Shown here piece after piece: positions 859 to 25,762 of a stretch of DNA of 42,631 nt. Position 1 is the first letter of the stretch, and each line of letters starts with the position of its first letter. The notes beneath the pieces were generated by a model. That model worked only from the letters and a program-made list of their open reading frames with translations. It made no database searches and was not told the origin of the DNA. Source of the DNA: an uncultured Clostridia bacterium (GTDB taxonomy: Bacteria > Bacillota > Clostridia > Oscillospirales > Ruminococcaceae); NCBI GenBank assembly GCA_947625195.1, contig CANQNK010000018.1:1-42631 (forward strand), read 5' to 3'. Both the position numbers and the translations under genes were made by a program.

Positions 859-1122
859 TCATATTTCCCAATGGTCAACACTGTCGGGACAAAAGGTGTT
901 TATTTTAAGAGCTCTGAGCTCAACATAGCAGCCGCAAAGCGTACACATTCCAAAGGAAAGCTGTTTGCACTCTTTGCAGATTTCAAGACGGCGTTTATAT
1001 TCCTCTTCACTGCATCTCTTGTCCTTTGGGTACGAAGAAATATAGCCCTTTAAAGAGCGGATAAATTCATCTTCGTCAAGGCTGTCAAGAAGACATTTTC
1101 TGCAAAACGGCTTTGACATCAT
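859..1122 (-). CDS. DUF6171-type small Cys-rich protein
   Basis: This 87-residue protein has two Cys-pair clusters: CRKC near residue 7 and, towards the C-terminus, CKEC..MCTLCGCYVELRA....FCP. The pattern resembles the DUF6171 family of short clostridial proteins and implies a zinc- or metal-stabilised fold; function is unknown. The start ATG at 1122 overlaps the stop of the upstream arabinofuranosidase gene in an ATGA arrangement, so the two are probably translationally coupled; a second in-frame ATG lies one codon later. No transmembrane segment or signal peptide is visible. The DUF assignment is from memory of the motif. Confidence 0.75.
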   Translation of the reverse strand: MMSKPFCRKCLLDSLDEDEFIRSLKGYISSYPKDKRCSEEEYKRRLEICKECKQLSFGMCTLCGCYVELRALKINTFCPDSVDHWEI

Positions 1123-2597: not shown

Positions 2598-2626
2598 ACA
2601 AAAAATCCTTTCTGTCTATGCCTTGT

Positions 2627-3214
2627 TTATCCGTTTCTGTCCTCGAGAAAAAACGTGGCCTCCATATCTGCAATGTTAAGTGCCAGAGCAAGAGGAAACA
2701 TATCAAGTGCGTTACCTACGGTGTTTTTATTCTCTTCTCCGGAAAAACCCATATGATAACGGATCGCAAAAGCTTCGTCCCTGGTAAGCCGCATAAATCC
2801 CGAAATTATGTAAACGCTTTTTTCTCCGTGGCCATAGGGGAGAGTATCGTCAAATCTATATGTGGGAACCTTTATCCACGTTCCCGTTTCGTCCTTGACA
2901 TTTCTGTAATCCTTTTTGTATACGTTTGTCTTGCAGATATCGTGTAAAAGGGCTACAACGGCAACGCTTTCCTCAGAAAAATCAAGAGAGAATTTTTCCT
3001 TAGCCTCGGGTCTGTTTAGATAGCTTTTCAGACATTCGTATACATTTAAGCTGTGCTCTAAAAGTCCTCCCTCGTATGCTCCGTGGTAACGGGTTGACGC
3101 GGGAGCTGTAAAAAAATCACACGCAGGGCTTAAAAGATAATCCAGCAGCCTTTGAGAGCCATCTCGTTTGATATTATCGCTGAATATTTCGATGAATCTT
3201 TCTTTATTTGTCAT
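2627..3214 (-). CDS. HD-domain hydrolase
   Basis: The product is about 195 residues. It has an HD metal-dependent phosphohydrolase core: YHGAYEGGLLEHSLNV with the first His, then ALLHDICKTN with the HD doublet, and later GHGEKS and RYHMG histidines. The arrangement resembles the HD domain of YhaM-like nucleases, but the OB-fold part of YhaM is absent, so the substrate is unknown. I place the start at ATG 3214 rather than at an upstream in-frame codon near 3295, because the promoter (-10 at 3248-3253) lies between the two. A purine-rich AGGAAAGGA precedes the chosen start at a slightly long distance. It probably shares a transcript with the arabinofuranosidase gene downstream. Confidence 0.85.
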   Translation of the reverse strand: MTNKERFIEIFSDNIKRDGSQRLLDYLLSPACDFFTAPASTRYHGAYEGGLLEHSLNVYECLKSYLNRPEAKEKFSLDFSEESVAVVALLHDICKTNVYKKDYRNVKDETGTWIKVPTYRFDDTLPYGHGEKSVYIISGFMRLTRDEAFAIRYHMGFSGEENKNTVGNALDMFPLALALNIADMEATFFLEDRNG

Positions 3215-3247
3215 TCTGATGACCGTTCCTTTCCTGATTCTTACACA

Positions 3248-3276
3248 AGTATACCATAAATCCGTTTTGCTTTCAA
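3248..3276 (-). promoter_or_regulatory. SigA promoter for the HD hydrolase operon
   Basis: On the minus strand TTGAAA (complement of 3271-3276) and TATACT (complement of 3248-3253) are spaced 17 bp apart. It is divergent from, and only a few bases away from, the promoter at 3281-3309, so a single regulator could act on both. Confidence 0.75.
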
Positions 3277-3280
3277 GTGC

Positions 3281-3309
3281 TTGCCCGGTGCGCAAATTTG
3301 TGGTATACT
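3281..3309 (+). promoter_or_regulatory. SigA promoter for the Cof-type HAD gene
   Basis: TTGCCC at 3281-3286 and TATACT at 3304-3309 are 17 bp apart, about 30 bp upstream of the GTG start at 3345. The divergent partner promoter is at 3248-3276. Confidence 0.65.
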
Positions 3310-3344
3310 AAGACTTAAGAAAAAACGGGTGAAAGAGAAATTCT

Positions 3345-4139
3345 GTGAAGGGGTGTATTTTAACATTGGAGAAAGTGCTTTTGTTTGACCTTGACGGAAC
3401 ACTTTTAAGAAGTGATAAAACAATATCACCATACACGACAAAAGTTTTGCAAAAATGCAGGGAAAGAGGTCTTATATTAGGAATAGCCACTGCAAGAAGC
3501 GAAATGAATGCACGCAGGTTTATTTCAGAGGTAAACCCTGAGATAGTCGTATCCAGCAACGGTGCGCTTGTGAGCTTTAAGGGTAAAAGTATTTATCGCT
3601 GTGAGTTTTCTAAAGAGGATACAAAAACTATCATAGATACTGCAAGAGCAGCCTTGGGCAGCGACTGTGAGATTACTGTGGACACTGCTGATAAGCACTA
3701 CTGGAATTATAAGGTCTTTCCGCTTGATTTAGACTCAAGCTGGGGCGAAACTACATACACCGATTACAGCCGGTTTTGTGAAACAGCCTTGAAAATATGC
3801 ATAGGTTTCAAGGATGAAGAACTCGCACGGCAGATAGCCGATAGCGTTGGGGACTGCTCATACTTTAAGTTTTCAGACGGGGACTGGTATCAGTTCAGCA
3901 GGAAGTTAGCAACAAAAGAAAACGCCGTTGCAGAGCTATCAAAAGCGGTGGGAATAGAGACTGCTGATATAACCGCTTTCGGAGATGATTTTATAGATAT
4001 TAAAATGCTGAGAGTCTGCGGAAAAGGCGTCGCGGTGGGTAACGCAATAAACGAGGTAAAGAAAATAGCAGACGTGGTTATCGATACGAATGACAATGAC
4101 GGCATTGCAAAGTATTTGTCTGATGTATATAATTTATAA
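3345..4139 (+). CDS. Cof-type HAD-IIB phosphatase
   Basis: The 264-residue protein belongs to the Cof/HAD-IIB hydrolases, which dephosphorylate sugar phosphates, flavin or cofactor phosphates. Motif I FDLDGTLL (nucleophile Asp15), motif II 'TARS' near residue 49, and motif IV GDDFIDIKML near residue 215 are all present, with the mixed alpha/beta C2 cap between. The start is uncertain: GTG 3345 gives a short N-terminal extension, while TTG 3366 lies 12 nt after a stronger AAGGGG. It stands alone with its own promoter. The natural substrate cannot be told from sequence. Confidence 0.9.
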   Translation: MKGCILTLEKVLLFDLDGTLLRSDKTISPYTTKVLQKCRERGLILGIATARSEMNARRFISEVNPEIVVSSNGALVSFKGKSIYRCEFSKEDTKTIIDTARAALGSDCEITVDTADKHYWNYKVFPLDLDSSWGETTYTDYSRFCETALKICIGFKDEELARQIADSVGDCSYFKFSDGDWYQFSRKLATKENAVAELSKAVGIETADITAFGDDFIDIKMLRVCGKGVAVGNAINEVKKIADVVIDTNDNDGIAKYLSDVYNL

Positions 4140-4261
4140 AGGACAATAACTCATGAGCGTTATGTGCAGTTGTACCGACGATTTACAAACAGACTTTGCT
4201 CTCAATTCTTATAAATTGCTTTTATAACTATTATTTATTGCATTGCACTTAGGGAGGAACT

Positions 4262-6112
4262 ATGTACAGAGAAAAGATTGAAAAAATTCTGCCGAGCGTT
4301 CAAAAGCCCGCCAGATACATCGGCGGAGAGCACGGCAGCGTCGTAAAGGATAAAAATAAAGTAAGCGTGCGCTTTGCTTTCTGCTTTCCCGATACATACG
4401 ACGTTGGAATGAGCCATCTGGGTATGAAGATACTTTACGGCCTTAAAAACTCGGTAGATGACTACTGGTGCGAAAGGGTTTTTCAGCCTGAGCCCGATTA
4501 TGAACAGAAAATGCGGGAGGAGGGTATCCTTCTTTACGGGCTTGAGAGCTTAGAGCCAATAAAGGATTTTGACTTTATAGGCTTTACGCTTCAATATGAG
4601 CTCAGCTACACAAATGTCCTTAATATGCTTGACCTTGCAGGCGTGCCGCTGCACGCACGTGACAGAAAGGACTTATCCCCAATAGTAGTAGCGGGAGGTC
4701 CGTGCGTGTGTAATCCGGAGCCGCTTGCAGACTTTTTTGACATTTTTATTTTGGGCGAGGGCGAAAAGGTAAACTTAGAGCTTATGGAGCTTTACAAGAC
4801 TATGAAGGAAAAGGGCGCAGGCAAGGAGGAGTTTTTGCTTAATGCCGCAAAAATTGAGGGCGTTTATGTTCCTGGTTTTTATGACTTCGAGTATAACTGT
4901 GACGGTACGGTGAAGTCCTGCACGCCGAACAGAAACGGCGTTCCCGAAAGGGTGAGAAAAAGGGTAATTGAAGATCTTGACAGTGTTTATTATCCCGATG
5001 ACTTCGTTGTTCCATTCACTAAAATCGTTCACGACCGCGCGGTGGTAGAGGTTTTGCGCGGATGCATAAGAGGATGCAGATTCTGTCAGGCAGGCTTTAT
5101 ATACCGTCCGTTTCGGGAGAAAAGTGTTGATACGATAAAACGCAACACTAAGGACCTTTGTAAAAGCACGGGATATGAGGAAGTATCTCTTTCAAGTCTT
5201 TCTACCAGTGACCACACCCGGGTAAATGAGCTTTTAGCCGAGCTTGTTGACTATACAAAGGACGAGCAGATATCTCTTTCTCTGCCGTCACTCAGGGTCG
5301 ATAACTTCAGCGAGGAGGTTCTCAATAAAATTTCAACTGTACGAAAAAGCGGACTTACCTTTGCTCCTGAAGCGGGTACTCAACGCCTCAGGAATGTTAT
5401 CAACAAAAATGTGAGCGAGGAAGAGATAATGCGCTCCTGCAAAATAGCCTTTGAGGGCGGATATACCTCGGTTAAGCTTTACTTTATGCTGGGACTCCCG
5501 ACCGAAACTATGGAGGATATTGAGGGAATGGCTGATACTGCGCATAAGATAATCGATTTGTTTTACTCCATACCAAAAGAAAAAAGAGGAAAGGGCTCTG
5601 TAAGTGTTTCGATATCATGCGCGACCTTTGTGCCGAAGCCGTTTACTCCTTTTGAATTTGAGCCGCAGGCCACAAGGCAGGAGGTAACCGAAAAGCAGGA
5701 GCACCTGATATCTTGTCTTAAGACCAGAAAAATCAAAGCGAGCTGGCACGATTATAACGTAAGTCTTCTGGAAGCGGCTCTTGCAAGGGGCGACAGGCGG
5801 CTGGGAGCCGTTATTGAAAAGGCTTGGCGGCGAGGCTGCAAAATGGACAGCTGGGACGAATACTTTAAACCTGATATATGGTGGAAAACCTTTGAGGACC
5901 TTAATATTGACCCTGAGTTTTACGCCTGCCGAAAGAGAGATTACTCTGAGGTGTTTGCGTGGGATCATCTTGACTATATGGTGTCAAAAAGCTTCTTTAT
6001 AAGGGAAAACAAGCTTGCTCACGAGGCTAAGACCACACCTAATTGTAAGGAAAAATGCTCTGGCTGCGGAGTTAAAAAAGAGTGCGGAGGTGTATACTGT
6101 GGAGGAAAATAG
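4262..6112 (+). CDS. B12-binding-type radical SAM protein (TIGR03960 family)
   Basis: The 616-residue protein has an N-terminal region with a cobalamin-binding-like Rossmann fold (about 35-180, including 'DVGMSHLG' and 'VVAGGPCVCNPEP') and a radical SAM barrel with the cluster motif C268-x3-C272-x2-C275 in RGCIRGCRFC. The C-terminal tail has a further Cys cluster (CKEKCSGCGVKKECGG..C) that could hold another metal centre. The family is called TIGR03960 and in many Firmicutes and Actinobacteria sits directly before a DUF2344 gene, as here with a 14-bp overlap, and near ribosomal or RNase genes. A role in RNA or ribosome modification has been suggested from context but the reaction is unknown. 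A clear AGGGAGGA precedes the ATG. Confidence 0.9.
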   Translation: MYREKIEKILPSVQKPARYIGGEHGSVVKDKNKVSVRFAFCFPDTYDVGMSHLGMKILYGLKNSVDDYWCERVFQPEPDYEQKMREEGILLYGLESLEPIKDFDFIGFTLQYELSYTNVLNMLDLAGVPLHARDRKDLSPIVVAGGPCVCNPEPLADFFDIFILGEGEKVNLELMELYKTMKEKGAGKEEFLLNAAKIEGVYVPGFYDFEYNCDGTVKSCTPNRNGVPERVRKRVIEDLDSVYYPDDFVVPFTKIVHDRAVVEVLRGCIRGCRFCQAGFIYRPFREKSVDTIKRNTKDLCKSTGYEEVSLSSLSTSDHTRVNELLAELVDYTKDEQISLSLPSLRVDNFSEEVLNKISTVRKSGLTFAPEAGTQRLRNVINKNVSEEEIMRSCKIAFEGGYTSVKLYFMLGLPTETMEDIEGMADTAHKIIDLFYSIPKEKRGKGSVSVSISCATFVPKPFTPFEFEPQATRQEVTEKQEHLISCLKTRKIKASWHDYNVSLLEAALARGDRRLGAVIEKAWRRGCKMDSWDEYFKPDIWWKTFEDLNIDPEFYACRKRDYSEVFAWDHLDYMVSKSFFIRENKLAHEAKTTPNCKEKCSGCGVKKECGGVYCGGK

Positions 6113-6749
6113 GTTCGACCGACGTATTACTTTTTCAAAATCCGGCAGGGCGGTTTATATCTCTCATCTTGATCTGATGCGGACTATGCAGAGAGCTTTT
6201 AAGCGTGCAGGGCTTCCCATATGGTATACGCAGGGCTTTAATCCGCACGCTTACATTATGTTTCCGCTTGCGCTTTCTCTGGGAATTTCAAGCAACGTCG
6301 AAATAATGGACGCCTCGCTTACGGAGGATATTCCCTGTGATGAGGTGACAAAAATGCTCAACTCTGCCTTGCCGACAGGACTTAAGATAATCAAAACCGC
6401 CATTCCTGTAAAAAAGCACACTGCTATAAAAAAAGCCGAATACGAAATTATATTAAACGCCGGGGAAAGTGACTTTAACGAATTTATTTCCCGGGAAAAA
6501 ATAGAGATAAAAAAGAAAACCAAGAAAAGTTATGAAAAGCTCATAGATATCAAGCCAGACATTGAGGTGCTCGGGCTTAGATGTACAGGCGGGGAGCTTT
6601 TCATAAGCGTTCGGCTTCCGGCAGGGTGCGGCTTAAACATAAATCCATCGGTTCTGATCGAAGCTTTTTCTGAGTTTACCGGTGAAATATATACAGCCAA
6701 AGTAAGTCGCACAAGGATACTTGATCAAAACGGTGAGGAGTATTGCTAA
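6099..6749 (+). CDS. DUF2344 protein (TIGR03936 family), partner of the radical SAM gene
   Basis: This protein of 216 residues has the N-terminal FSKSGRAVYISHLDLMR motif and 'AFKRAGLPIWYTQGFNPH', which define the TIGR03936/DUF2344 family. In many genomes the domain is fused to, or follows, the TIGR03960 radical SAM protein, so the two probably act together on the same substrate. I chose GTG 6099, 8 nt after GGAGG, over an upstream in-frame start at 6015 that would lie deep inside the preceding gene and lacks a ribosome-binding site. It overlaps the preceding gene by 14 bp, consistent with coupling. Function unknown. Confidence 0.88.
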   Translation: MEENRFDRRITFSKSGRAVYISHLDLMRTMQRAFKRAGLPIWYTQGFNPHAYIMFPLALSLGISSNVEIMDASLTEDIPCDEVTKMLNSALPTGLKIIKTAIPVKKHTAIKKAEYEIILNAGESDFNEFISREKIEIKKKTKKSYEKLIDIKPDIEVLGLRCTGGELFISVRLPAGCGLNINPSVLIEAFSEFTGEIYTAKVSRTRILDQNGEEYC

Positions 6750-6847
6750 AACTGTGGCAAAATCTGATATTCATAAGACTTTACGCAAATTTGTTTCGTT
6801 CATTATTGACAGCAGATAACAGATATTAATAAATTTTCCAAAAAACT

Positions 6848-6876
6848 ATTGCATTTTATTTTAAGATGTGATATAA
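6848..6876 (+). promoter_or_regulatory. SigA promoter of rplS
   Basis: TTGCAT at 6848-6853 and a consensus TATAAT at 6871-6876 are exactly 17 bp apart, giving a leader of about 130 nt before the GTG of rplS. Confidence 0.8.
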
Positions 6877-6883
6877 TATCAAA

Positions 6884-7015
6884 GCATTTGAAAATCCGTC
6901 GCGAAATCCGACGGGAGTTAATGCGTATCAGCCGATATACATTAAAGCGGACAGTCCTCTGGCACTGCAACAGGGCAGGGCGTATGAATGTCTGAAAAAA
7001 CAGGAGGTATTTAAA
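6884..7015 (+). promoter_or_regulatory. rplS 5' leader, candidate L19 autoregulatory element
   Basis: The transcript leader carries a clear hairpin (CCGTCG 6895-6900 with CGACGG 6908-6913) and further pairing potential before the strong CAGGAGGT ribosome-binding site. Firmicutes have a described structured leader upstream of L19 thought to mediate feedback by the ribosomal protein. Position and length fit, but I cannot confirm a covariance match by eye. Confidence 0.45.
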
Positions 7016-7360
7016 GTGGACGCTTTAAAACTGATTTCAAATTCAAGCCTTAAGGCTGAAGTTCCTGAGCTTAACATAGGCGACACCGTTAAGGTCCATG
7101 TTAAGATCAAGGAGGGCGACAAGTCGAGAATTCAGGTGTTTGAGGGAACTATCATTGCTAAAAAGCACGGCGGCGTAAGCGAGACCTTCACGGTCAGAAG
7201 AGTTGCTCACGGCTGCGGAATCGAGAGAGTTTTCCCGGTACATTCGCCGGTTGTTGACAAGGTTGAGATTGTTAGAAGCGGTAAGGTTAGAAGAGCTAAG
7301 CTCTACTATCTGAGAAACAGAGTAGGTAAAGCCGCTAAGGTTAAAGAAGCAATCAGATAA
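7016..7360 (+). CDS. rplS: 50S ribosomal protein L19
   Basis: The 114-residue product is a full-length L19, which sits at the 30S-50S interface. Diagnostic segments are '[29 protein letters not shown]', '[20 protein letters not shown]' and '[22 protein letters not shown]'. The start is GTG after CAGGAGG. It has its own promoter and leader and a strong terminator, so it is transcribed separately. In related genomes it is followed directly by lepB/rbgA/rnhB; here two minus-strand genes interrupt that order. Confidence 0.98.
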
Positions 7361-7362
7361 TC

Positions 7363-7400
7363 AAAAAAACGGAGCGCATTTGTGGTGCGCTCCGTTTTTT
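7363..7400 (+). terminator. Terminator of rplS
   Basis: A perfect 10-bp stem (7369-7378 with 7386-7395), 7-nt loop, is followed by a T run and preceded by an A run, so it may also stop minus-strand transcription arriving from the HAD gene. Confidence 0.9.
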
Positions 7401-7488
7401 ATAAGCTATCAAATTACAATTATTGACTTTTAATCAATTTCTAAATGTGAAGCAAATTTAGCTATATTCATTTTACAACTTTTAGAAT

Positions 7489-8190
7489 CTATTCCATAGT
7501 ATTTATTATACCCGGCAATTCTTTTAAAGAAGCAATCTCATGCTCTTGACCAAAGTTCTTATCCTCTTTGCTTCTATTTATAAGGACAGATACTGCACCT
7601 GCGTTCTTAGCACATAAGATATCTTTCATTTCGTCTCCAACAAAAATTATCTTTTTCGTATCTACTTCAAGTTGATTTGCAATCAGTTGCAGTCCTTCAG
7701 CGTTTGGTTTGCGATATCCTATATCATTTGATGTATAAGGGTATTGAATGTATTTCATAATAGGAGCTATATCTTCAAGCGCGTACTTATTATCCATTCC
7801 ATAAGCCACATCAGTTAATGTTCCAACTACAATTCTTTTATTATTAAGTTCTTGCAAAGTATCCTCAACCTCTGGAAAAATCACAGCGTCATTTCTAAAA
7901 AATGAATAAAATGAGTCCTTAAATTCTTCTATTTGATTTTTTTCAAGATTTGTAATCTCAATCATTTCGCCAAAAATAGTATTTGAAGAAACTTCCCGTC
8001 CCCTAGGGTTGATTCTTGTATTATATTTTGTTAAAACTTCAATTGCATTTTTATAATCATTTTCCGAAAAATTAAGATTGCAATCATTAGCCATTTTTTC
8101 AAGTGCCGGACGATATAACTTTGACCAATTCAATGGCTTGTCATATGTTACCAATGTTTCTCCGATATCAAAAATAACTGCCTTGATCAT
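7489..8190 (-). CDS. HAD-superfamily hydrolase (subfamily IA)
   Basis: The 233-residue protein has HAD motif I VIFDIGETL (nucleophile Asp8), a helical cap (about 20-95), motif II 'GTLTDVAYG' near 125-133, the motif III Lys in 'GYRKPNAEG', and motif IV 'IFVGDEMKDI'. It is a complete phosphatase of the phosphoglycolate phosphatase/haloacid dehalogenase-like type; the substrate is unknown. It starts 24 bp after the stop of the M24 peptidase gene, so both form one minus-strand operon. Both genes are visibly more AT-rich than the rplS and lepB genes around them and face the other way, which suggests insertion by transfer. Confidence 0.88.
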   Translation of the reverse strand: MIKAVIFDIGETLVTYDKPLNWSKLYRPALEKMANDCNLNFSENDYKNAIEVLTKYNTRINPRGREVSSNTIFGEMIEITNLEKNQIEEFKDSFYSFFRNDAVIFPEVEDTLQELNNKRIVVGTLTDVAYGMDNKYALEDIAPIMKYIQYPYTSNDIGYRKPNAEGLQLIANQLEVDTKKIIFVGDEMKDILCAKNAGAVSVLINRSKEDKNFGQEHEIASLKELPGIINTME

Positions 8191-8214
8191 TAAATAACCT
8201 CGTATCTTTAAAAT

Positions 8215-8901
8215 CTACAACTCAATCAGTTTTCCATTTTCAAAATAATAGATATTTTCTTTTTTGTATCCGTACTTTGAGCCCGGAATGCTAATATGCG
8301 GCTCAAACGTAAAATAGGAAACCTCACTGAGCTTATGATTATTTCCTTTCTCAATATACACTCTGTCATCCTTATTTTCAGCAATAGAATGACCTAAATT
8401 TCCCATAAAATCAAGGTTGATAAATCCATGATTCTTTATAATTTCATTGATATGAAAGTACAATTCTTCAAAAGTTGTTTGTGGCTTTACGAAATCCAGC
8501 AATTCTTTATGTAATCTATCTTCCATCATAAGACCATTTCGCCATTCAGCATTTTTTACATCTGTACTTTCAACAACAATACCATCTTCAAGAATAATCG
8601 TCCTTGCATAGTCTCCCCAAATGTTATTGATTTGCGGACTTAAATCTACAGTTATAATATCAGTCTCACCAATGATACGATCACTTATAGTATATTGTTT
8701 TCCTGACACAGAAACCGTTGTCTCATCTCCGGCAAACACAAATGCGCCAATATCCCAATACCAAAATGAGTCTGCTCCGAGCTCTAACATCTTCTGCTCA
8801 CACATTTCTCTTACTTCAATAAGATTCATTCCGGGATGTATACTTTGCTTTATAAATTTTATAGTGTCCTTGGCAATCTGTTGCACCTGTTTGTATTTCA
8901 T
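8215..8901 (-). CDS. M24-family metallopeptidase (Xaa-Pro peptidase-like)
   Basis: The 228-residue product is a single pita-bread domain without the usual N-terminal creatinase domain. The five dimetal ligands of M24 peptidases can be seen: Asp86 (TVDLSP), Asp97 (WGDYAR), His171 (NLGHSI), Glu200 (FTFEPH) and Glu215 (KKENIYY). It is therefore probably an active aminopeptidase or a relative with another substrate. I chose ATG 8901, preceded by AGGAAGG at the right distance, rather than an in-frame codon seven residues upstream. The neighbouring HAD gene is co-directional and close. Low GC compared with flanking genes. Confidence 0.88.
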   Translation of the reverse strand: MKYKQVQQIAKDTIKFIKQSIHPGMNLIEVREMCEQKMLELGADSFWYWDIGAFVFAGDETTVSVSGKQYTISDRIIGETDIITVDLSPQINNIWGDYARTIILEDGIVVESTDVKNAEWRNGLMMEDRLHKELLDFVKPQTTFEELYFHINEIIKNHGFINLDFMGNLGHSIAENKDDRVYIEKGNNHKLSEVSYFTFEPHISIPGSKYGYKKENIYYFENGKLIEL

Positions 8902-15734: not shown

Positions 15735-18674
15735 CTATGGTTTATTTTTTTTAATAATAAGCCGACCTGCCAGATCCCTCACGGCATTCATGTCGATCGG
15801 CTTTGCAAGATGCCCGTCCATTCCCGAGTCCAACGCATTACGAACATCTTCGGCAAATGTGTTTGCAGTCATCGCCGCAATGGGAATCGTTTTTGCTTCA
15901 GGATGACCGGAAGCGCGTATCTGCCTGGTGGCTTCATAGCCGTTCATCACCGGCATCTGTACGTCCATAAGTATCATATCGTAATGACCGGGTTGTGATT
16001 TTGTAAACATATCCACAGCTTCCTGACCGTTTACCGCTAATTCACAACTTGCGCCCTCCATACCAAGCATCTCAGTCAAAATCTCAGCATTTAACTCATT
16101 GTCCTCCGCCACTAGGAACATACGTCCTTTCATCACGCTATCTACAGCTTCCTTGCCACCGTCATTATGTACGGTATGATCAGAGAACAAAGGCTTGATG
16201 GTCTGCCAGAAAGTAGAGACGAAGAAGGGCTTAGGCATAAAGGCATTGATGCCCGCCTGACGCGCTTCTGTTTCAATATCACTCCAATCGTAGGAGGTAA
16301 GCACCATAATAGGAACACCCGTTCCAATCTGCTCGCGAATCATACGGGCAGTTTCGATGCCATTAAGTCCCGGCATTTTCCAATCCAGCAAAATAACATT
16401 AAAATCCTCGCCACGCCGGTGCGCCTGAACTGCCGCTTCAACAGCGGCAGAGCCGTCTGTAACATAAGATATATCCACATTTGTATCACGCATCAGTTCC
16501 TTTATATCCAGACATATCTCTTCCTCATCGTCCGCAACGAGCATACGTGTGATCTTTTCACTGAACCACTGCTCAGATTCCTCCTGTTCAGGAAGAGCAA
16601 AGGACAACTCGACAGTAAATGTAGTGCCTTTTTGCGGCTGACTTTCTACCCAGATGACGCCGCCCATAAGGTCCACCAGATTTTTGGTGATTGCCATACC
16701 AAGGCCTGTCCCCTGTATCTTATTGGTGACAGAGCTGATCTCTCTGCTAAAGGGAGCGAAGATGTGCTTTTGAAATTCCTCGCTCATTCCAATTCCATTG
16801 TCACGAACAACAAACCGCAGCTTGATATACTGATGCGCGGAACTGGGAAGTTCATACACAAGAAAATCGATCTTTCCGCCATCCGGAGTATATTTGATCG
16901 CATTCGACACAAGATTGATAAGTATCTGATTAAGACGAAGCTTATCGCCGATCATCTGTTCCGGAGGAGTTCCCTGCACATAAAACTTTAAGCATTGATG
17001 TTTCGCTTTTGCCTGCGGCATCAAGATGATATTCAGTTCTTCAAGAAGCTCCGGAAGGCTGAAACGGTCCACATTTAAAGATGTTTTACCGCTTTCGATT
17101 TTGCTCATGTCCAGAACATCGTTTATAAGACTTAGCAGGTGATGACTGGAGGCTGTTATCTTGCGGGTATACTCCCGAACCTTATCGGCCTTATCCGCAT
17201 CTTTTTCCAGTAGTACCGAGAAGCCGACAATGGCGTTCATAGGGGTGCGGATATCATGCGACATGTTTGAGAGAAAATTGCTCTTTGCCTCATTGGCGCT
17301 TCTTGCCGCTGTCAGCGCCTCCTGAAGCTGTTGATTCATCTGTTGTTCCTGAGTACGGTCCGATAATACAATAATGAATTTTGTAACATCTTGAATGTTC
17401 ATATGGTATACAGTCATTCTGTACCAACGACGCTCACCGGTGTTTTGATGCATATACTCGCATTCCCAGTATTTGTTGCCATTTAGAGGAATCGCTTTAA
17501 GCTCCTCCTTAGGAATCACAACATCGTAGTTTATAGCACACTTTTCCATTACCCGAATATTGTTTAGGGCTTCTTGAACCGGAATACCCAGCAGTCTTTC
17601 AATATTAGGGCTGATATAATCCACTCTCTGGTTTTCGTGATCAAGCATTATAAATATGTCGTCAACGTTGTTAGACAGTACATCAAACATTAGCTCTCTG
17701 TATTGAAGCTCCGTTTTATTTTTACGTGACTGCTTTCGGCTTCGAGCGTAAAGCAAAGCGATAACTGCGGCTCCGATCAACAGGAAAATTACAATAAGAA
17801 CGGTCATTGTGATTTTCTGTACTGACAGAAATCCGGCACTGACAACACTTTGCGGCACCACGCTTAGCAGAATATAATCCTGATATCCGACAGGTTGATA
17901 CAAAATGCAGTAGCTTACATCACCGATATCACACTGTAACAGACCGGAGGTTCCGCTTTGCCAGTCGTTTTGGATCTGCGCCAGCCTATCTTCATTCAGG
18001 TCTGAAGCGGCTTTGAGATATACAAGGTAATTGTCAAACACACTGCCGCCCGTCTGCGTAGAGAGCAGCACGCTGCCGTCGTTATGAATTACGCAACATT
18101 TGGCTTGCCCTGAAAAAGCGTCCACGTTTAGAGAATCGGCCATATCTGCATTCGTGTAACTGATTGCGATAGCATCATAGCCAAATCCCTTATACTCTCC
18201 TGGCTGTACCGGAATGGCGAAAACGGTTACCTCCTGACCGGCAGACAAGGTTCCTCCGACCATGATTGGTTCCTTCTTCTGCGAAAGGCTGTTCCAGACT
18301 TCTTCCAGATCTATATTTTCCCCGGTGCCGTCCGGAGTTGTAAGGCTTTTATCATCTGAGAGAAAGTAAAATTCCGAAAAGCCCCAGTATTCCTGTTCTT
18401 TTGCGATATATTCAGAAACCTCGCTGCTTTTAATGTTTTTTGTCACAGTGAGATAGTTTCCCCAGCTATCCAAAAGCCCCCAGTTTCTTTCGACAAAGGC
18501 TCCGAACGAGCGGTTTACCTGACCGTAAATTTCCTCCAAATGGTCCGTGCTGTCTTCATAGATACTTTGGGAAATAAAATCAAAATAAAAAATCCCTATT
18601 AAAATGGCAGCAACACCTATTATGCACATTAAAATTGACAGCACTAATTTTCCTAACCATTTTTTCATGAACAA
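15735..18674 (-). CDS. Hybrid sensor histidine kinase with two receiver domains
   Basis: The 979-residue membrane protein has an N-terminal helix (about 9-31), an extracellular sensor domain of Cache type (about 32-285), a second helix (about 289-310), a PAS domain (about 325-445), HisKA with phospho-acceptor His473 in NMSHDIRTPMN, HATPase with N591 and G boxes (DNGIGM, GTGLGM), and two receiver domains with phospho-Asp764 and Asp904. No Hpt or DNA-binding output is visible, so signalling must go through another protein. The start is TTG 18674, seven bases after GGAG; ATG 18668 is the alternative. It is co-transcribed with the binding protein. Confidence 0.93.
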   Translation of the reverse strand: MFMKKWLGKLVLSILMCIIGVAAILIGIFYFDFISQSIYEDSTDHLEEIYGQVNRSFGAFVERNWGLLDSWGNYLTVTKNIKSSEVSEYIAKEQEYWGFSEFYFLSDDKSLTTPDGTGENIDLEEVWNSLSQKKEPIMVGGTLSAGQEVTVFAIPVQPGEYKGFGYDAIAISYTNADMADSLNVDAFSGQAKCCVIHNDGSVLLSTQTGGSVFDNYLVYLKAASDLNEDRLAQIQNDWQSGTSGLLQCDIGDVSYCILYQPVGYQDYILLSVVPQSVVSAGFLSVQKITMTVLIVIFLLIGAAVIALLYARSRKQSRKNKTELQYRELMFDVLSNNVDDIFIMLDHENQRVDYISPNIERLLGIPVQEALNNIRVMEKCAINYDVVIPKEELKAIPLNGNKYWECEYMHQNTGERRWYRMTVYHMNIQDVTKFIIVLSDRTQEQQMNQQLQEALTAARSANEAKSNFLSNMSHDIRTPMNAIVGFSVLLEKDADKADKVREYTRKITASSHHLLSLINDVLDMSKIESGKTSLNVDRFSLPELLEELNIILMPQAKAKHQCLKFYVQGTPPEQMIGDKLRLNQILINLVSNAIKYTPDGGKIDFLVYELPSSAHQYIKLRFVVRDNGIGMSEEFQKHIFAPFSREISSVTNKIQGTGLGMAITKNLVDLMGGVIWVESQPQKGTTFTVELSFALPEQEESEQWFSEKITRMLVADDEEEICLDIKELMRDTNVDISYVTDGSAAVEAAVQAHRRGEDFNVILLDWKMPGLNGIETARMIREQIGTGVPIMVLTSYDWSDIETEARQAGINAFMPKPFFVSTFWQTIKPLFSDHTVHNDGGKEAVDSVMKGRMFLVAEDNELNAEILTEMLGMEGASCELAVNGQEAVDMFTKSQPGHYDMILMDVQMPVMNGYEATRQIRASGHPEAKTIPIAAMTANTFAEDVRNALDSGMDGHLAKPIDMNAVRDLAGRLIIKKNKP

Positions 18675-18759: not shown

Positions 18760-18857
18760 TTTGAAACACAATTAGTTAAATAATTGGTGAGCCTTAATGT
18801 CGTCAATGATCTTTTCAGATATAGTACATCAGACGGTTGAGTAAAAAACATCAATTT

Positions 18858-18891
18858 AAACGGACGCACACATTGTGGTGTACGCCCGTTT
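18858..18891. repeat. Imperfect 34-bp palindrome
   Basis: AAACGGaCGcACAC at the left pairs with GTGTaCGcCCGTTT at the right, 12 of 14 positions matching. There is no good T tract on either side, so it is a doubtful terminator; it may be a binding site or the remnant of one. It stands between the divergent kinase and peptide-cluster operons. Confidence 0.5.
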
Positions 18892-18927
18892 ATTTGTAAA
18901 AGCACTATTTAAGATGTAAAACAAAAA

Positions 18928-19040
18928 AGCCTTGTAAAATCAAGGCTGAAGCATAGCCATTGCTATGCTTTTTTGACAGACTGTCAAGAGCAAAAAGCTA
19001 TTTAGCTTTTTGCTCTTGAATTTCTTAATTTATTACAAGG
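18928..19040 (+). promoter_or_regulatory. Triple-hairpin leader before the peptide cluster, including a terminator
   Basis: Three perfect inverted repeats follow one another: 18928-18947 (7 bp, loop TAAAAT), 18949-18970 (9 bp, loop CATT, then TTTTTT: a terminator), and 18985-19018 (16 bp with a two-base centre). A small 5-bp palindrome (18975-18985) lies between. The 5' arm CCTTGTAA (18930-18937) is also complementary to TTACAAGG (19033-19040), the ribosome-binding region of the first gene, so alternative pairing could hide it. The stretch 18772-18927 otherwise holds only the palindrome at 18858 and no gene. Confidence 0.55.
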
Positions 19041-19050
19041 ATGTATTTGA

Positions 19051-19308
19051 ATGACTAAAAGGAGTATTAAGTTTCCTGATTATATATCATGGTCTCTGCT
19101 GTGTGATGAAATATTTGTTTTTAATGAACTGAACGGAAAAATAACTGTTCTTAAAGGCGCTTCTAAAGATTTATGGCTGTTCTTGGAAAAAAGTCGGGAT
19201 ATTTTAAAAGTGATTGATTATATCTCGAATAAAGATAATATTTCATTTGAAAAGGTCAACGAAAAAATCAGATACCTGATGTCCGAAAAGACATTTTTGA
19301 AATTATAG
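19051..19308 (+). CDS. PqqD-like peptide-binding domain, N-terminal piece of a broken radical SAM maturase
   Basis: The 85-residue product has the look of a PqqD/RRE domain (RiPP recognition element): an N-terminal strand, 'CDEIFVFNELNGKITVLKGASKDLWLFLEK', then helices rich in charged residues 'VIDYISNKDNISFEKVNEKIRYLM'. PqqD domains bind leader peptides for radical SAM enzymes and are often fused to the N-terminus of SPASM enzymes. Here the frame stops at 19306-19308, and the sequence immediately carries on in the -1 frame with the middle of a radical SAM enzyme. So this is most likely the front of a formerly fused maturase. AAGGATG precedes the ATG. Confidence 0.6.
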   Translation: MTKRSIKFPDYISWSLLCDEIFVFNELNGKITVLKGASKDLWLFLEKSRDILKVIDYISNKDNISFEKVNEKIRYLMSEKTFLKL

Positions 19309-20066
19309 AATATGCGAGAAAACTATATATGCGTGTTTTCCTGTTGAGCAACGGAACTCTGTTAACTGAAAGTATAGTGAAGCGTCTCAAGGAGCTTCAT
19401 ATCTCCGAATTCTCCACTACTTTGTTTTCAATGGACTGTGATATCCATGATTCGATAACCCGAAAAAAAGGATCTTGGGATACCCTCATAAATGGTTTGA
19501 CATTATTAAATAAATATGGCATAATTACAAAAGTAAAAACACCGATTATTAAGAAAAATGTTGACGGAATACAGGATATCAAAGATTTTTGTGATAAAAA
19601 TAACTTTGAATTTCTGGCATCTCCGACAATATTCAATAAAAACGACGGAAGTTCACAACCGCAGAATTTCTGTATCAGTGACGATAAAATGATTAGTGTT
19701 ATCAGATTTATTGATTCTCTTTCGAACAGGAATTATCTCCATAACAGAAATGTATCATGTGTCGCTTTGTTTTATTCATTTTCGATTGACTGTAAAGGAA
19801 ATGTATATCCTTGTAACTCTTTTATGAGTAAAGTCGGTAATGTTTTTGAGACACACCCAAAGGACATCTGGAATAATTCAGAAACACTCAAAGAGATAAA
19901 ATCAATCAGCAATAATCAACTCAGTGTCTGCAAAAACTGCGAATATAAGCCGGAGTGTTACAGATGCCCGGCGTTAGTATACATGAATAATAAGGATTTT
20001 TATTCATGCGACGAGTATTCAAAAAAACTGGCGAAAATCAGAATGTCTGGTTATAAATGCACTTAA
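19290..20066 (+). pseudogene. Radical SAM/SPASM peptide maturase, fragment lacking the SAM cluster motif
   Basis: In this frame, similarity begins at codon 19290 with DIFEIIEYARKLYMRVF and LLSNGTLL, the second third of a radical SAM barrel, and runs to a complete SPASM domain: C-x9-11 region DCKGNVYPC, then VCKNCEYKPECYRCPA and a final YSCDE. The N-terminal CxxxCxxC that binds the SAM-reactive cluster and the GGEP strand are missing. The first ATG (19329) has no ribosome-binding site. About 100 residues appear deleted between the PqqD piece and this part, out of frame by -1. It is not a working radical SAM enzyme as it stands. Confidence 0.75.
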
Positions 20067-20084
20067 AACAGGGAGTTGTATATT

Positions 20085-21875
20085 TTGAATTTCCATAAGC
20101 TCAATCCGGGAAAATTTATTTTATTCTACATTAAAATAAATGCTAAACAGGCTTTGTTTAATGTGGTTTATACTATATTAAATGCTCTTATGCCTGCGTT
20201 TGAAACTATTGTACTTGCAAATTTCATAAACAGTGCAATAAAAGTTTTTGAAGGAAAACGAGATTATGATGTAGTTATACTTCCTATTATTCTACTTGTT
20301 TTCTATGCTTTCTTTACTAATTTCATGCTGGAAGTTTCTGAACTTGTCAATTTAAAAGCCAAAAATAGAATTACTGTTTATCTGAAAAAAATCCTTCTTG
20401 ATAAAAAATCAAAATTGGAATACTTCCATGTGGAAAATGCTGAAGATCAAGATTTAATTAACAGAGTCTGCTTTGATCCGATTGAAATGTTTGTGAATGG
20501 GTTTAAGAATATACTAACGACAGCATATCTTATTATCAGTTCAATGTCTATTTTATTTATCATTTTCAGTATACAACCTCTTAGCGCTATTGCAATTATT
20601 TGTGTCACAATACCATTGTTCTATATATCACTCAAAACAGGCAGGAAGAATTATGAACTGAGTCAAGAGGATCAGAAAATAAAGAGACAGTACAGCTACA
20701 TTTCTGAAATGCTTATGAACCGTGAATATGCAGACGAAAGATCACTTTTTCTTTATAGTGATGCATTCAGTAAAAAGTATTCTGATATGTATAATGATGC
20801 CTTCAAGATTGAATCCAAAATCGAAAAGAAACGCTATACTAATATGAAAAGCGGCTCACTTGTTACACTACTGCTTATATTCATTATATTGCTTATTCTT
20901 ATTCCAAGTTTAAGGAGCAAGACTATTACCATTGGAACATTTATCGCATTAGCTAACGCTTCTTTAAGCCTTGTCCAGAATATGTCGTGGAAATTATCCG
21001 TAGCTATGATGGAGCATTCAAAACTAAATGAGTATTTAAAGGATTGGAACCATTTTTTCGGCTTGAGTGAAAAGAACGATGCGGATATTGCTGCAGAGTT
21101 GGATAATAACTTCAGATTTGAAGGACTTGAATTTGTTGACGTGAGCTTTAAATATCCTAATACTGATAATTATATACTTAAAAACTGTTCGTTTAAAATG
21201 CAAAGCAAAAAGAAGTATGCACTGGTCGGTGTAAACGGTGCTGGAAAATCAACCATAATCAAGCTTATAACCGGAATGTACAATGACTATTCTGGAAAGA
21301 TACTCCTTAACGGTAAGGATATAAAAGAATATGATTATGCAATGTTAAAGGGGATAATTTCGGTTGTATTTCAGGATTTTTGCAGATATGAAACAACTGT
21401 AAAGGACAATATAATAGTCGGAAGAAATTTTGAGTATGATCAGGGTGAGGTAAAAGCTATCATTGATAAACTCGAATTGACAGATCTGAATGAAAATCTG
21501 AAAAACGGTCTTGACACACCTATTGGAAAGGCTATTGAGGAGGGTGTGGATTTATCCGGCGGACAGTGGCAGAAGCTCGCAATATCGCGCTTGCTGTATT
21601 CAGATGCACAAATTAATATTCTTGATGAACCCACGGCAGCTCTTGATCCTATCGCGGAAAGTAATACCTATAAATTGTTCAATAGTGTTTCGGATAAAAA
21701 GTTTGTTATATACATAACTCACAGACTTGGTGCAATAAAAATGGCTGATGAAATTCTGTTAGTAAATGATGGTTGTATTGCAGAAAAGGGCAACCATAAA
21801 TCGCTTATGGAGGCAAAAGGAATATACTATAATATGTATAGCAAACAACGTGAATGGTATAAGGAGAATGCTTGA
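20085..21875 (+). CDS. ABC exporter (fused membrane and ATPase domains), first of a pair
   Basis: The 596-residue protein has an N-terminal six-helix exporter domain (about 1-320) and a C-terminal ATPase with Walker A GVNGAGKST, the signature LSGGQWQ, Walker B INILDEPTAALD and the switch His in ITHRLG. All ATPase residues are intact. No peptidase C39 domain is present. The start is TTG 20085, about nine bases after GGGAG; a TTG at 20076 directly abuts that SD and is unlikely. The stop is followed by the second exporter gene with a 2-bp gap. The pair probably forms a heterodimeric exporter, likely of a modified peptide given the PqqD/SPASM genes upstream. Confidence 0.9.
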   Translation: MNFHKLNPGKFILFYIKINAKQALFNVVYTILNALMPAFETIVLANFINSAIKVFEGKRDYDVVILPIILLVFYAFFTNFMLEVSELVNLKAKNRITVYLKKILLDKKSKLEYFHVENAEDQDLINRVCFDPIEMFVNGFKNILTTAYLIISSMSILFIIFSIQPLSAIAIICVTIPLFYISLKTGRKNYELSQEDQKIKRQYSYISEMLMNREYADERSLFLYSDAFSKKYSDMYNDAFKIESKIEKKRYTNMKSGSLVTLLLIFIILLILIPSLRSKTITIGTFIALANASLSLVQNMSWKLSVAMMEHSKLNEYLKDWNHFFGLSEKNDADIAAELDNNFRFEGLEFVDVSFKYPNTDNYILKNCSFKMQSKKKYALVGVNGAGKSTIIKLITGMYNDYSGKILLNGKDIKEYDYAMLKGIISVVFQDFCRYETTVKDNIIVGRNFEYDQGEVKAIIDKLELTDLNENLKNGLDTPIGKAIEEGVDLSGGQWQKLAISRLLYSDAQINILDEPTAALDPIAESNTYKLFNSVSDKKFVIYITHRLGAIKMADEILLVNDGCIAEKGNHKSLMEAKGIYYNMYSKQREWYKENA

Positions 21876-21877
21876 GC

Positions 21878-23629
21878 ATGAAAAAAAACGGTTACATTGA
21901 TAGCGGAGTAAAAAGCATACGTTTGATGCACGAAGCAGAGCCAAAGATGTTTCGTAAATACTGTATATTTGTTCTTGTTCACGGCTTGTCATGGACAATT
22001 CAGGTAGTTGCTACACAGCTTTTTTTTGATACTGCTCAGAATTTTTATGAGGGAAGAGCGAAAGTCTGGTTTCTAATATTTACTCTTCTCTGCATGATCG
22101 GTTCTTACGCTCTGACACAGATAATGAACGGTGTCGATAATTGTTTTGCAAATATTTATTTCCTTGCGATACAAAAACACAATAATCTGAAAATATTCAA
22201 GAAAATTGATGAATTGGATTGTGTCCAGTTTGAATCGACCAAAAAGCTTGATATGATTAACAAGGCAGTTAGTGGTTCTAACAGTACGGCATGGGTAGGC
22301 TTTACGCTCATTGATGTGTTCCTGTTTTATACGACATATTTCTTTTCCATGAGCATATATCTGTTCAGATTAAAGCCTGTTTTATGTGTCTGCATATTGA
22401 TAGTTTTCATACCTTGCTATCTTACTGATTTGATAAGCATAAAGAAATTCCGGACTCTTGAAGACAAATCCGCTCCGATAAGACGTGAAAGTGAATATTA
22501 CGAAAAATACGCTTCAGATATAAAAGAAACGAGAATGTTAGGAGTAACCGAGCATTTTAAGAAGCTGTTCTGTCTGAAACTTAATAAGCTCAATGACATG
22601 ATTTATCAGACTCAGAGATACAAAAAAATGCTTCAGATCAAAATGAATCTAATGCAGGTAGCAGGATATGGATTGATAATCATATTAACTATGCATTATG
22701 TTATGGAAAATGATATTTCTGTTGGTGCATTTGCCGCAGTTTTTTCCTCCATCGGTAGCTTGTTTGGCTTTATGAGCGAAGTAATAACCGAAAGAATAGG
22801 ATGGGCTTCCGAAAATGTAGGTAATGTACAGAATTTCTTTGAATTCCTTAATGAAGATTTAAAACAGAAAAAAATCGTTTATAAAGCTGATTCTGATTCT
22901 ATAGAACTGAAAAATGTATCTTTCAGATATCCCTCCGCCGAATCCGAAGCATTGAAAGATGTCAACCTGAAAATCAGAAGCGGTGAGACTATTGCTGTTA
23001 TCGGAATAAACGGTTCTGGTAAAAGCACTTTGTGCAAGCTGTTGCTTGGTCTTTATAAGCCGACAAAAGGTGATATTTCTTTTGGAGATAATTTAAAAAA
23101 TGATTCAAAGAACTTAAATGCATCAGCCGTTTTTCAGAATTTTTGCAAGTACAAGATCTCACTAAAAGAAAATATTTGTATCAGTAATGTTGATTCTGAA
23201 ATTAATTCCGATGCATTCCGGGCTTTCTGTGGAAAAAATGGCATAAATGTTGATAGGTTCGACTGCGGTGAAGATACGATTTTAAGCAGAGAATTCGGTG
23301 GAACGGAATTATCAGGCGGACAATGGCAGAAAATTGCAATTGCTAGGGCAATATTCAGAGACAGTCCATTGGTTATTCTGGATGAACCGACTGCTGCGAT
23401 CGATCCTTTGGAGGAAAAGAAACTATATAATAAGTTCCTTGAAATATGCGAGGGTAAAACTGCTGTTATTGTCAGTCACAGATTAAGCTCGGTTCAGATT
23501 GCAGACAGAATTATTGTAATGGATAACGGAAGCATAATTGAAGATGGTACTCATGAGGAATTACTGGCACTTGATGGACTGTATTCAAAAATGTATCATT
23601 TGCAGAAAGAAACATATATATTTTCATAA
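21878..23629 (+). CDS. ABC exporter (fused membrane and ATPase domains), second of a pair
   Basis: The 583-residue protein repeats the layout of its neighbour: six predicted membrane helices (about 25-310) and an ATPase with Walker A GINGSGKST, LSGGQWQ signature, Walker B LVILDEPTAAID and switch His in VSHRLS. It differs enough from the first to be the heterodimer partner rather than a recent duplicate. The start is ATG 21878, 11 bases past AAGGAG; a TTG at 21872 is possible. Both genes are AT-rich like the rest of the island. Confidence 0.9.
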   Translation: MKKNGYIDSGVKSIRLMHEAEPKMFRKYCIFVLVHGLSWTIQVVATQLFFDTAQNFYEGRAKVWFLIFTLLCMIGSYALTQIMNGVDNCFANIYFLAIQKHNNLKIFKKIDELDCVQFESTKKLDMINKAVSGSNSTAWVGFTLIDVFLFYTTYFFSMSIYLFRLKPVLCVCILIVFIPCYLTDLISIKKFRTLEDKSAPIRRESEYYEKYASDIKETRMLGVTEHFKKLFCLKLNKLNDMIYQTQRYKKMLQIKMNLMQVAGYGLIIILTMHYVMENDISVGAFAAVFSSIGSLFGFMSEVITERIGWASENVGNVQNFFEFLNEDLKQKKIVYKADSDSIELKNVSFRYPSAESEALKDVNLKIRSGETIAVIGINGSGKSTLCKLLLGLYKPTKGDISFGDNLKNDSKNLNASAVFQNFCKYKISLKENICISNVDSEINSDAFRAFCGKNGINVDRFDCGEDTILSREFGGTELSGGQWQKIAIARAIFRDSPLVILDEPTAAIDPLEEKKLYNKFLEICEGKTAVIVSHRLSSVQIADRIIVMDNGSIIEDGTHEELLALDGLYSKMYHLQKETYIFS

Positions 23630-23660: not shown

Positions 23661-25163
23661 ATGAAATTACCAATTAACGAAAAACCATTTATAAGAACTT
23701 ACCCTGATTTTATGTTTCTTGATACAATAATCAACAACAGCACTACAAATGACAGCTGTATTTCAATAATAAGCTTTCCAGAAGATAAAATATCATCATT
23801 ATACTATTCCCTCCAGACTGCCGAATACGAAATAAATGGAAATGATATCAGTATTATCAGAAAAGGCTACGACATCGATTCAAGAAAGGCCATCTGGTTT
23901 GAAACTGAGTCTGACTTTGAAGATATAGTTTTTCAAATAAAATATCAGCAATTTACTAATTCATGGGATTCTGTTCTGTTTTTCGTTGACGAAGATCCGA
24001 CGGATGAGAAACTGGACTTTTATCCGAAACTGCGGCTTGTTATCGGACGCTACTGTAACGGAATGATTTACATACTGACAAACGGAGAGTACGTTTATAT
24101 TCCTGATAAAACTGATGTTAAATTTTTCAGGATACGGAAAGGAAAAGATATAATATATTTCTATGTATCATATGATAACAAAGACTGGACGGAGATATAT
24201 AATGAAGAATTTAGGACACCTGAAAAATTGAAAATTGGCAGCCTTTCTTGTCTGCAGAATAATCAATACTTCAAATGGTTATGCAATAATTTTATTATGT
24301 TCAAATTCAATAAAAACCATCAGTCAAGGATAGATTATGTTGATTTTATTGAGAGAGACAGCAGTATTTTTACCGTGCATCCTTTTGTAAAATTCTCATA
24401 TGAAAAAACCGAAATCATTGATGATGTATACGGCGGTTTATGGAATTATATAGTTCAGTCAGTGAAAAACGGAAAATATATTCAACTGATACTTAATGAA
24501 AATTATATTCCCGGAACGGATGCGTATAACGAACGTGAATTTTATCATGAAAGTTTGATTTACGGTTTTGATGATGTTAAAAAAACTGTATTCATGCTGA
24601 TAGTTAACGGCGGAAAGCCTAAACTTCTTGAAACCGATTATAAATTTGTTAAAGAATCATGGTCGGGCGCTGACAGTATAACATTTGAATTTAAGCCAAG
24701 TATAAACAGCTATGAACTTGATATTGTAAATATTTATGAACGCATCTCTGCCTATCATTCGGGAAATAATACCACAGAAGCTCATAAACATCTCACAGAA
24801 TGTGACAGCGGAAATTTCGGCATTAAAATATACGATGAACTTCTGAACAATAAAGAATCACAGGAACTTCTTTTACAAGATATTCGTATTCCTTTTATGA
24901 TACATGAACATAAAAAATGTATGCAGTTGAGGATGGAGTATCTTGCGGAGTGGGGGCTTTTCCCGAAGATTTATGAAGCTCGGATTGAGAATTATATAAA
25001 AAAAATCGTTAATACTTCTGAGATTATATTGGTACTAATTATGAAGTATCAGCGGTCGAAAAATCAATCTATCTGCGAAAGAGTAATAAATAACATTAAG
25101 ATTTTGAAAGATTTGGAAACTAAATGCTACAGACTTTTTCTGAACATACTGGAATCAGTTTAA
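23661..25163 (+). CDS. Two-domain protein of unknown function in the peptide cluster
   Basis: The 500-residue product has two parts. Residues about 30-217 look like a DUF1349/concanavalin-like beta-sandwich: 'FEDIVFQIKYQQFTNSWDSVLFFVD', 'LRLVIGRYCNGMIYI', 'FFRIRKGKDIIYFYVSYDNKDWTEI'. Residues about 235-345 contain 'GKYIQLILNENYIPG', 'FYHESLIYGFDDVKKTVFMLIV' with His296, reminiscent of BtrH-like/papain-fold acyl- or peptide-transfer proteins, though I see no catalytic Cys before the His. The remainder is helical. No signal peptide. AGGAG precedes the ATG. By position it could help mature, cleave or immunise against the exported product; this is inference only. Confidence 0.6.
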   Translation: MKLPINEKPFIRTYPDFMFLDTIINNSTTNDSCISIISFPEDKISSLYYSLQTAEYEINGNDISIIRKGYDIDSRKAIWFETESDFEDIVFQIKYQQFTNSWDSVLFFVDEDPTDEKLDFYPKLRLVIGRYCNGMIYILTNGEYVYIPDKTDVKFFRIRKGKDIIYFYVSYDNKDWTEIYNEEFRTPEKLKIGSLSCLQNNQYFKWLCNNFIMFKFNKNHQSRIDYVDFIERDSSIFTVHPFVKFSYEKTEIIDDVYGGLWNYIVQSVKNGKYIQLILNENYIPGTDAYNEREFYHESLIYGFDDVKKTVFMLIVNGGKPKLLETDYKFVKESWSGADSITFEFKPSINSYELDIVNIYERISAYHSGNNTTEAHKHLTECDSGNFGIKIYDELLNNKESQELLLQDIRIPFMIHEHKKCMQLRMEYLAEWGLFPKIYEARIENYIKKIVNTSEIILVLIMKYQRSKNQSICERVINNIKILKDLETKCYRLFLNILESV

Positions 25164-25588: not shown

Positions 25589-25665
25589 TGGTCGAGGTGA
25601 CAAGACTTGAACTTGCGGCCTCTGCGTCCCGAACGCAGCGCTCTACCAAACTGAGCCACACCTCG
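25589..25665 (-). tRNA. tRNA-Pro (CGG)
   Basis: The minus-strand sequence folds as a standard cloverleaf: acceptor CGAGGTG/CACCTCG, D stem GCTC/GAGC, anticodon stem CTGCG/CGCAG with loop TTCGGGA (anticodon CGG), T arm with TTCAAGT, and encoded CCA. It reads proline CCG codons. It follows tRNA-Arg in the same transcript. Confidence 0.95.
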
Positions 25666-25686
25666 TAGTATTTAAAAGACAAGCAA

Positions 25687-25762
25687 TGGCACCCCCAGTA
25701 AGAATCGAACTTACATCTAACCCTTAGGAGGGGTTTATTCTATCCATTGAACTATGGGGGCA
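25687..25762 (-). tRNA. tRNA-Arg (CCT)
   Basis: The minus strand begins TGCCCCCATAG and ends CTGGGGGTGCCA, with anticodon loop CTCCTAA (anticodon CCT, codon AGG) and a T loop TTCGATT; CCA is encoded. It is the first gene of a two-tRNA unit driven by the promoter at 25790-25818. Confidence 0.95.

Follow-up and report, generated by a model that had tools for sequence, protein, structure and literature searches.

The analysed DNA, further referred to as the window, is 42,631 nucleotides long and spans the whole of contig 18 of a 1.73 Mb draft genome (33 contigs) of an uncultured Clostridia bacterium. A plus-strand operon is located between a sensor kinase gene on its left and the tRNA-Pro and tRNA-Arg genes on its right, as listed below:

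15735-18674, minus strand: sensor kinase gene, left flank of the operon
19051-19308, plus strand: PqqD-like ORF of 85 aa, likely a discrete leader binder (RRE) (ORF list, home-made profile)
19278-19286, plus strand: putative deletion junction, where the radical SAM (rSAM) register starts and the PqqD register fades (per-position profile scores)
19281-20066, plus strand: remnant of a radical SAM/SPASM maturase, front missing (Pfam, profile scores, homologue alignment)
20076-21875, plus strand: ABC exporter 1, membrane and ATPase parts, 599 aa, frame intact (ORF list, Pfam, NCBIfam)
21872-23629, plus strand: ABC exporter 2, 585 aa, frame intact (ORF list, Pfam, NCBIfam)
23661-25163, plus strand: 500-aa protein of no named family (Pfam, NCBIfam, homologue search)
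25589-25761, minus strand: tRNA-Pro and tRNA-Arg, right-hand border (tRNA detection, collinearity with the same-genus genome G001)

The interval between the sensor kinase gene and the PqqD-like ORF (18857-19019) contains three successive terminator-like hairpins, two of them on the minus strand (18892-18857 and 18947-18928) and the third formed by a 17-bp perfect inverted repeat (18984-19019). A promoter-like site (19497-19525; TTGACA and CATAAT separated by 17 nt), which could drive the ABC genes, lies inside the maturase remnant; such sites numbered 45 in the region versus 33.5 ± 5.2 in shuffled sequences.

The 85-aa ORF and the open frame running to 20066 in the -1 register were found just as a first-pass annotation, made from the DNA letters alone, had described them. 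The ORF starts at an ATG preceded at 9 nt by AAGGA. Its assignment as a PqqD domain was supported in part: searches of Pfam and NCBIfam at E ≤ 1 gave the ORF no PqqD hit, and PF05402 had no match in the genome, while a home-made profile of the PqqD domains of eight relatives gave 16.4 bits against 10.7 bits for the best of 2000 shuffles, with the HMMER alignment covering residues 19-74. This score supports, short of proof, the PqqD-like nature of the protein. According to one source, leader-binding domains are incompletely retrieved by PF05402 and occur either fused or as discrete proteins of fewer than 100 residues (PMC7470986); PqqD is presented as a separate partner of PqqE in another (PMC8326336).

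The second frame is open over 271 codons and ends at 20066, the remnant itself being free of stops for 262 codons. The remnant matched the Pfam Radical_SAM profile only at positions 58-165 of 166, and its SPASM domain is complete (PF13186, positions 1-67 of 67, 45 bits at a cut-off of 21.5), with the conserved SPASM cysteines aligning with those of relatives. Thus, the frame does hold the middle and the SPASM end of a radical SAM enzyme, starting at about 19281. Among the NCBIfam rSAM models in the matches listed, only TIGR04085, the model of the SPASM domain, exceeded its cut-off. The CxxxCxxC motif, which in radical SAM enzymes holds the SAM-cleaving [4Fe-4S] cluster, is missing from the remnant, as is the GGE SAM-binding motif, the three positions of which are occupied by N, Q and I (scores -2.6, -1.8 and -3.3). 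The CxxxCxxC pattern has four chance matches in the window, at 14-26.5 kb, none with rSAM context. A profile built for the absent front had no match in the six frames of the window (best E 0.57); it is specific to the maturase's kind of rSAM and likewise does not detect an unrelated rSAM gene located at 4262-6112. With neither CxxxCxxC nor the first part of the barrel, the maturase as sequenced should be inactive. The [4Fe-4S] cluster of radical SAM enzymes is described in PMC8326336. The remnant has no start codon before the ATG at 19329, which lies 20 nt past the stop of the PqqD-like ORF and has no clear Shine-Dalgarno sequence (best stretch GAG); the remnant, 245 aa from this ATG, is probably poorly translated. 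Programmed frameshifting was also considered and rejected: no clean slippery heptamer was seen by eye, and, as the first-pass annotation had rightly pointed out, a ribosomal frameshift could not restore the enzyme, because the lost part is simply absent.

The position of the join was estimated with a profile of 20 relatives, the window being excluded. In the rSAM frame, eight of the ten codons at 19251-19278 scored negative (-3.2 at 19278), the exceptions being the proline at 19275 (+2.5) and the lysine at 19251 (+0.7); the score was +0.3 at codon 19281 and ranged from +1.4 to +3.0 for the nine codons at 19284-19308. On the PqqD side, the ungapped scores were mixed from residue 75 (19273) to residue 79 and dropped to -3.5 at residue 80 (19288). 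The join probably lies near 19278-19286, being fixed by the rSAM side, with which the PqqD side agrees loosely. The overlap had initially been read as the PqqD end in one frame and DIFEIIEYAR of the rSAM in the other; the PqqD scores fade by residue 80, and therefore the stretch 19278-19308, where the two frames overlap, is not necessarily native to both of them. The last six to eight codons of the PqqD-like ORF probably belong to rSAM DNA, translated here in a different register. A long direct repeat at the junction seems unlikely, judging from the profile scores on both sides; a repeat search cannot reveal one, since a deletion leaves a single copy.

Relocation of the missing front within the genome was rejected, as neither the frames of the window nor any of the other genomic Radical_SAM matches revealed a stray maturase front. 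There are 20 such matches at E ≤ 0.1, the remnant included, and the frames of 16 of the other 19 contain a plain CxxxCxxC. Those without it are L047, which exceeds the MnmL/YtqA cut-off, L049, which has sub-cut-off rSAM matches only, and L054, which is probably not an rSAM, its best matches being sub-cut-off aldolase models. Only the front of the Radical_SAM profile is matched by L051, L052 and L053; the latter two pass the NrdG cut-off, and L051 has sub-cut-off activase matches only. An intact peptide maturase of a different kind, a SCIFF maturase of 454 aa, is encoded on contig 9 of the same genome (L045, 1198-2562; 714 bits with TIGR03974, cut-off 425).

The survey of homologous rSAM frames (stop-to-stop, at least 80 aa) yielded 104 frames at E ≤ 1e-4, of which 93 are distinct, six loci that are the window itself being left aside. 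CxxxCxxC is present upstream of the aligned start in 91 of the 93, at a distance of 44-60 residues (median 49; allowed 40-65), and in 89 of the 90 frames aligned from query residue 20 or earlier. The two exceptions are a fragment at the edge of locus L122 and a 329-aa rSAM/SPASM frame in the genome G533 (L073), in which the aligned part is preceded by about 75 residues and which is apparently a natural pseudo-rSAM. Many homologues of the same short form, a pattern that the first-pass annotation had set against its own reading, did not turn up: the form was found in 0 of the 93 distinct frames, the L122 fragment being too partial to judge. Counting the own genome in each case, rSAM matches occurred in 116 of 391 genomes of the class (E ≤ 0.001), in 35 of 398 of the phylum (E ≤ 1e-12) and in 19 of 396 of the family (E ≤ 1e-8), most of them outside the 93-frame survey; of 60 relatives, 10 gave rSAM matches at E ≤ 0.001, with a lowest E of 7e-8. 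Four relatives with short frames are likewise not of the window's form. Two of these are broken in other ways: L160 (G759, 767-1816) keeps its front intact but is interrupted by a single in-frame stop ahead of SPASM, and L161 (G520, 2115-2261) is reduced to a 49-aa frame. L162 (G627) gave no profile match, and the frame of L163 (G793), with its front intact, reaches the contig end.

The strongest full-length rSAM match in the collections searched is located on the Macrococcoides bohemicum plasmid p19Msa0383-1 (NZ_CP079985.1, L087), where the genes of a 93-aa PqqD, a 349-aa rSAM, a 40-aa peptide, a 342-aa rSAM and an ABC protein follow each other, the first two overlapping by 20 nt. The remnant shares 35% and 31% identity with these rSAMs, and in a tree of 21 rows with hand-picked relatives it groups with both of them (support 96/93) while staying outside both. 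These results do not agree with the initial view that a single fused PqqD-rSAM gene had been broken out of frame, nor with the expectation that the best matches would be fused proteins of 440-460 residues: the strongest ones are separate rSAMs of 349 and 342 aa. Fused proteins do exist (L022, 450 aa; L157, 456 aa; L158, 453 aa) but only as more distant relatives, one step further out. Because the strongest kin are separate genes, a fused ancestor appears less likely, and the frame difference between PqqD and rSAM may be ancestral. Since the strongest homologue is only 35% identical, neither the ancestral form nor the size of the deletion is fixed. The loss of about 300 bp suggested earlier is accordingly one size among others; by analogy with L087, and by arithmetic on its coordinates, it would be about 0.24 kb if it reached the same place in the first rSAM gene, whereas a fragment equivalent to the second rSAM, with the tandem rSAM and the precursor gone as well, would mean about 1.5 kb.

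A second case of a stand-alone PqqD with a separate rSAM is L156 (G1120, 1061-8849), the rSAM of which does not group with that of the window. Its operon encodes a PF13471 protein, of the lasso B2 type, together with PqqD, the separate rSAM, a protein with a sub-cut-off HPr-kinase match, two ABC-like proteins and a nucleotidyltransferase, so that genes of lasso type and of radical SAM type are combined in an uncommon way.

No convincing precursor gene was noticed beside the operon among small ORFs of at least 20 aa, judged by eye. The precursor may be located elsewhere or be too short to recognise, and, with no precursor gene found, the proposed RiPP role rests on relatives. Both ABC proteins are full-length open frames with Walker and signature motifs recognisable by eye, in accordance with the first-pass statement that the downstream exporters are intact, and two ABC exporters adjoin the modifying genes, as in RiPP biosynthetic operons. 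For the 500-aa protein, no named family in Pfam or NCBIfam scored above cut-off. The protein had seven matches in the 396 family genomes at E ≤ 0.001, its own included, and its best other homologue (G265) is 40% identical over nearly the full length. That homologue is accompanied by an ABC pair, a 58-aa ORF, which could be a precursor, and a 603-aa protein that matches, both times below cut-off, a QhpE-like (serine protease) model and the peptide-maturation model TIGR04066 (L030, 5236-7044 and 7733-9316; the 58-aa ORF at L016, 1232-1408). No peptide-maturation neighbours were seen in the stretches read around the homologues L031 and L032, and the link of the 500-aa protein with peptide maturation is one of neighbourhood only.

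The operon is AT-rich, with GC3 of 0.32-0.35 in its five genes versus 0.48 in the flanking sensor kinase gene and 0.47 in a flanking peptidase-like gene. The same-genus genome G001 is collinear with the window from 25557 rightwards, and a search of the stretch fetched (E ≤ 1e-8) did not detect the operon upstream of the neighbour gene conserved in the genus. Three further genomes of the genus (G013, G006 and G008) are collinear only from about 26000 rightwards in the stretches fetched, and at the same threshold these stretches gave no operon next to that gene either, G006 yielding only ABC paralogue matches of 25-29%. The base composition, together with the failure to find the operon in the stretches from these four genomes, suggests horizontal acquisition. 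Exact patterns of the junction (47 bases) and of the first ABC gene (41 bases) had 0 matches each in viral contigs, and the search of phage DNA gave no match; the protein searches returned one unannotated 6.5-kb faecal record (25.6%) from phages and two loci with a common 29-residue stretch from viral contigs.

Considering these data, we regard it as fairly probable that a recent natural deletion removed the maturase front of a probably imported, putative RiPP operon. The ancestral operon would have encoded a discrete PqqD-type leader binder, an rSAM/SPASM maturase, two ABC exporters and the 500-aa accessory protein; it would have served a ribosomally made, radical-SAM-modified peptide and probably arrived horizontally. 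The deletion would have fused the 3' end of PqqD directly to rSAM sequence immediately past GGE, leaving a remnant without the SAM-cleaving [4Fe-4S] cluster, so that no peptide would be modified. The locus is thus an everyday case of a lost gene or, possibly, of a fault in the assembly. The remnant, being still stop-free, points either to a recent loss or to an artefact, and its 262 open codons make us favour a recent event over an older one. That the organism's maturase is intact and the stretch was merely dropped from the contig, by an assembly or consensus fault or in a mixed-strain consensus, is the less likely of these two possibilities. It agrees with the window being an entire contig of a 33-contig draft genome, and with the exporters, the accessory protein and the remnant all being open, as would be expected if nothing were broken; nor can the repeat search count against it, since a junction repeat would leave one copy. 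Weakly against it, the rSAM profile comes on within a few codons and the PqqD profile goes off at about the same place, so that a repeat native in both frames and long enough to mislead the assembler seems improbable.

A larger deletion, which would have taken a first rSAM gene, the precursor and the front of a second rSAM gene together, is a variant of the favoured explanation and does not exclude it; to our judgement it is possible but on the unlikely side. The L087 gene order offers a model for it, no precursor is seen in the window, and the remnant, with comparable identity to each of the L087 rSAMs, branches outside the two in the tree; on the other hand, the precursor may lie elsewhere or be unrecognisably short, and a single rSAM gene is present in the stretches read of L022 and L156. 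We give very little credence to a functional short form, for which ribosomes would reinitiate past the PqqD stop and the product would act as an iron-sulphur or binding protein of the SPASM kind. The open frame and the full SPASM match would allow it, and motif-less pseudo-rSAMs exist (the TIGR04347 model, L073), but the window does not have the front residues that L073 keeps, ATG 19329 has no clear Shine-Dalgarno sequence, and the survey found no distinct frame of this kind apart from the unjudgeable L122 fragment.

Returning to the deletion reading, one may speculate, at rather low probability, that the strain is an immune non-producer, in which the biosynthetic front was deleted and the ABC pair with the 500-aa protein was kept against the same peptide made by neighbours. 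The broken maturase with intact export or immunity would then be a selected state, not simple decay; should such loss with kept export turn out to be frequent within the species, it would provide a modest example of immune non-producers. For enterocins, orphan ABC transporters that confer immunity are already described (PMC10598978); a narrow combined literature query for truncated radical SAM RiPP pseudogenes in the gut returned none. In practical terms, a wrong annotation is avoided: the locus is not to be listed among active peptide clusters of the radical SAM type, nor should it be cited for a maturase that is frameshifted or split. To the systems with separate PqqD and rSAM, seen here on the plasmid from the staphylococcal family and in L156, it contributes a further branch in its own bacterial group. 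It also shows an unnamed 500-aa protein family, which in one other genome (G265) recurs next to an ABC gene pair and a protein resembling peptide-maturation factors.

Compared with known systems, the window shares its domain order with the SkfB/AlbA-type sactisynthases, along with weak matches to SkfB (6efn) and to the AlbA model, but those enzymes are fused single proteins with the cluster motif. The pseudo-rSAM/SPASM proteins (TIGR04347, L073) similarly keep SPASM without CxxxCxxC; L073 differs in its longer front, and the remnant gave 52 bits with TIGR04347, below the family cut-off of 525. In PqqD/PqqE and other rSAM-SPASM RiPP systems with a discrete RRE, as presented in PMC8326336 and PMC7470986, a small separate PqqD-like protein adjoins the maturase, as in the window; unlike PqqE, the window enzyme has no catalytic cluster site, and its PqqE match stayed below cut-off, at 32.6 of 381 bits. 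The M. bohemicum plasmid locus differs in that it has two rSAMs, both complete, a 40-aa peptide gene and one ABC protein, and no homologue of the 500-aa protein was found in it, but it resembles the window in having a discrete PqqD gene, followed by a separate rSAM/SPASM gene in another frame and by ABC export.
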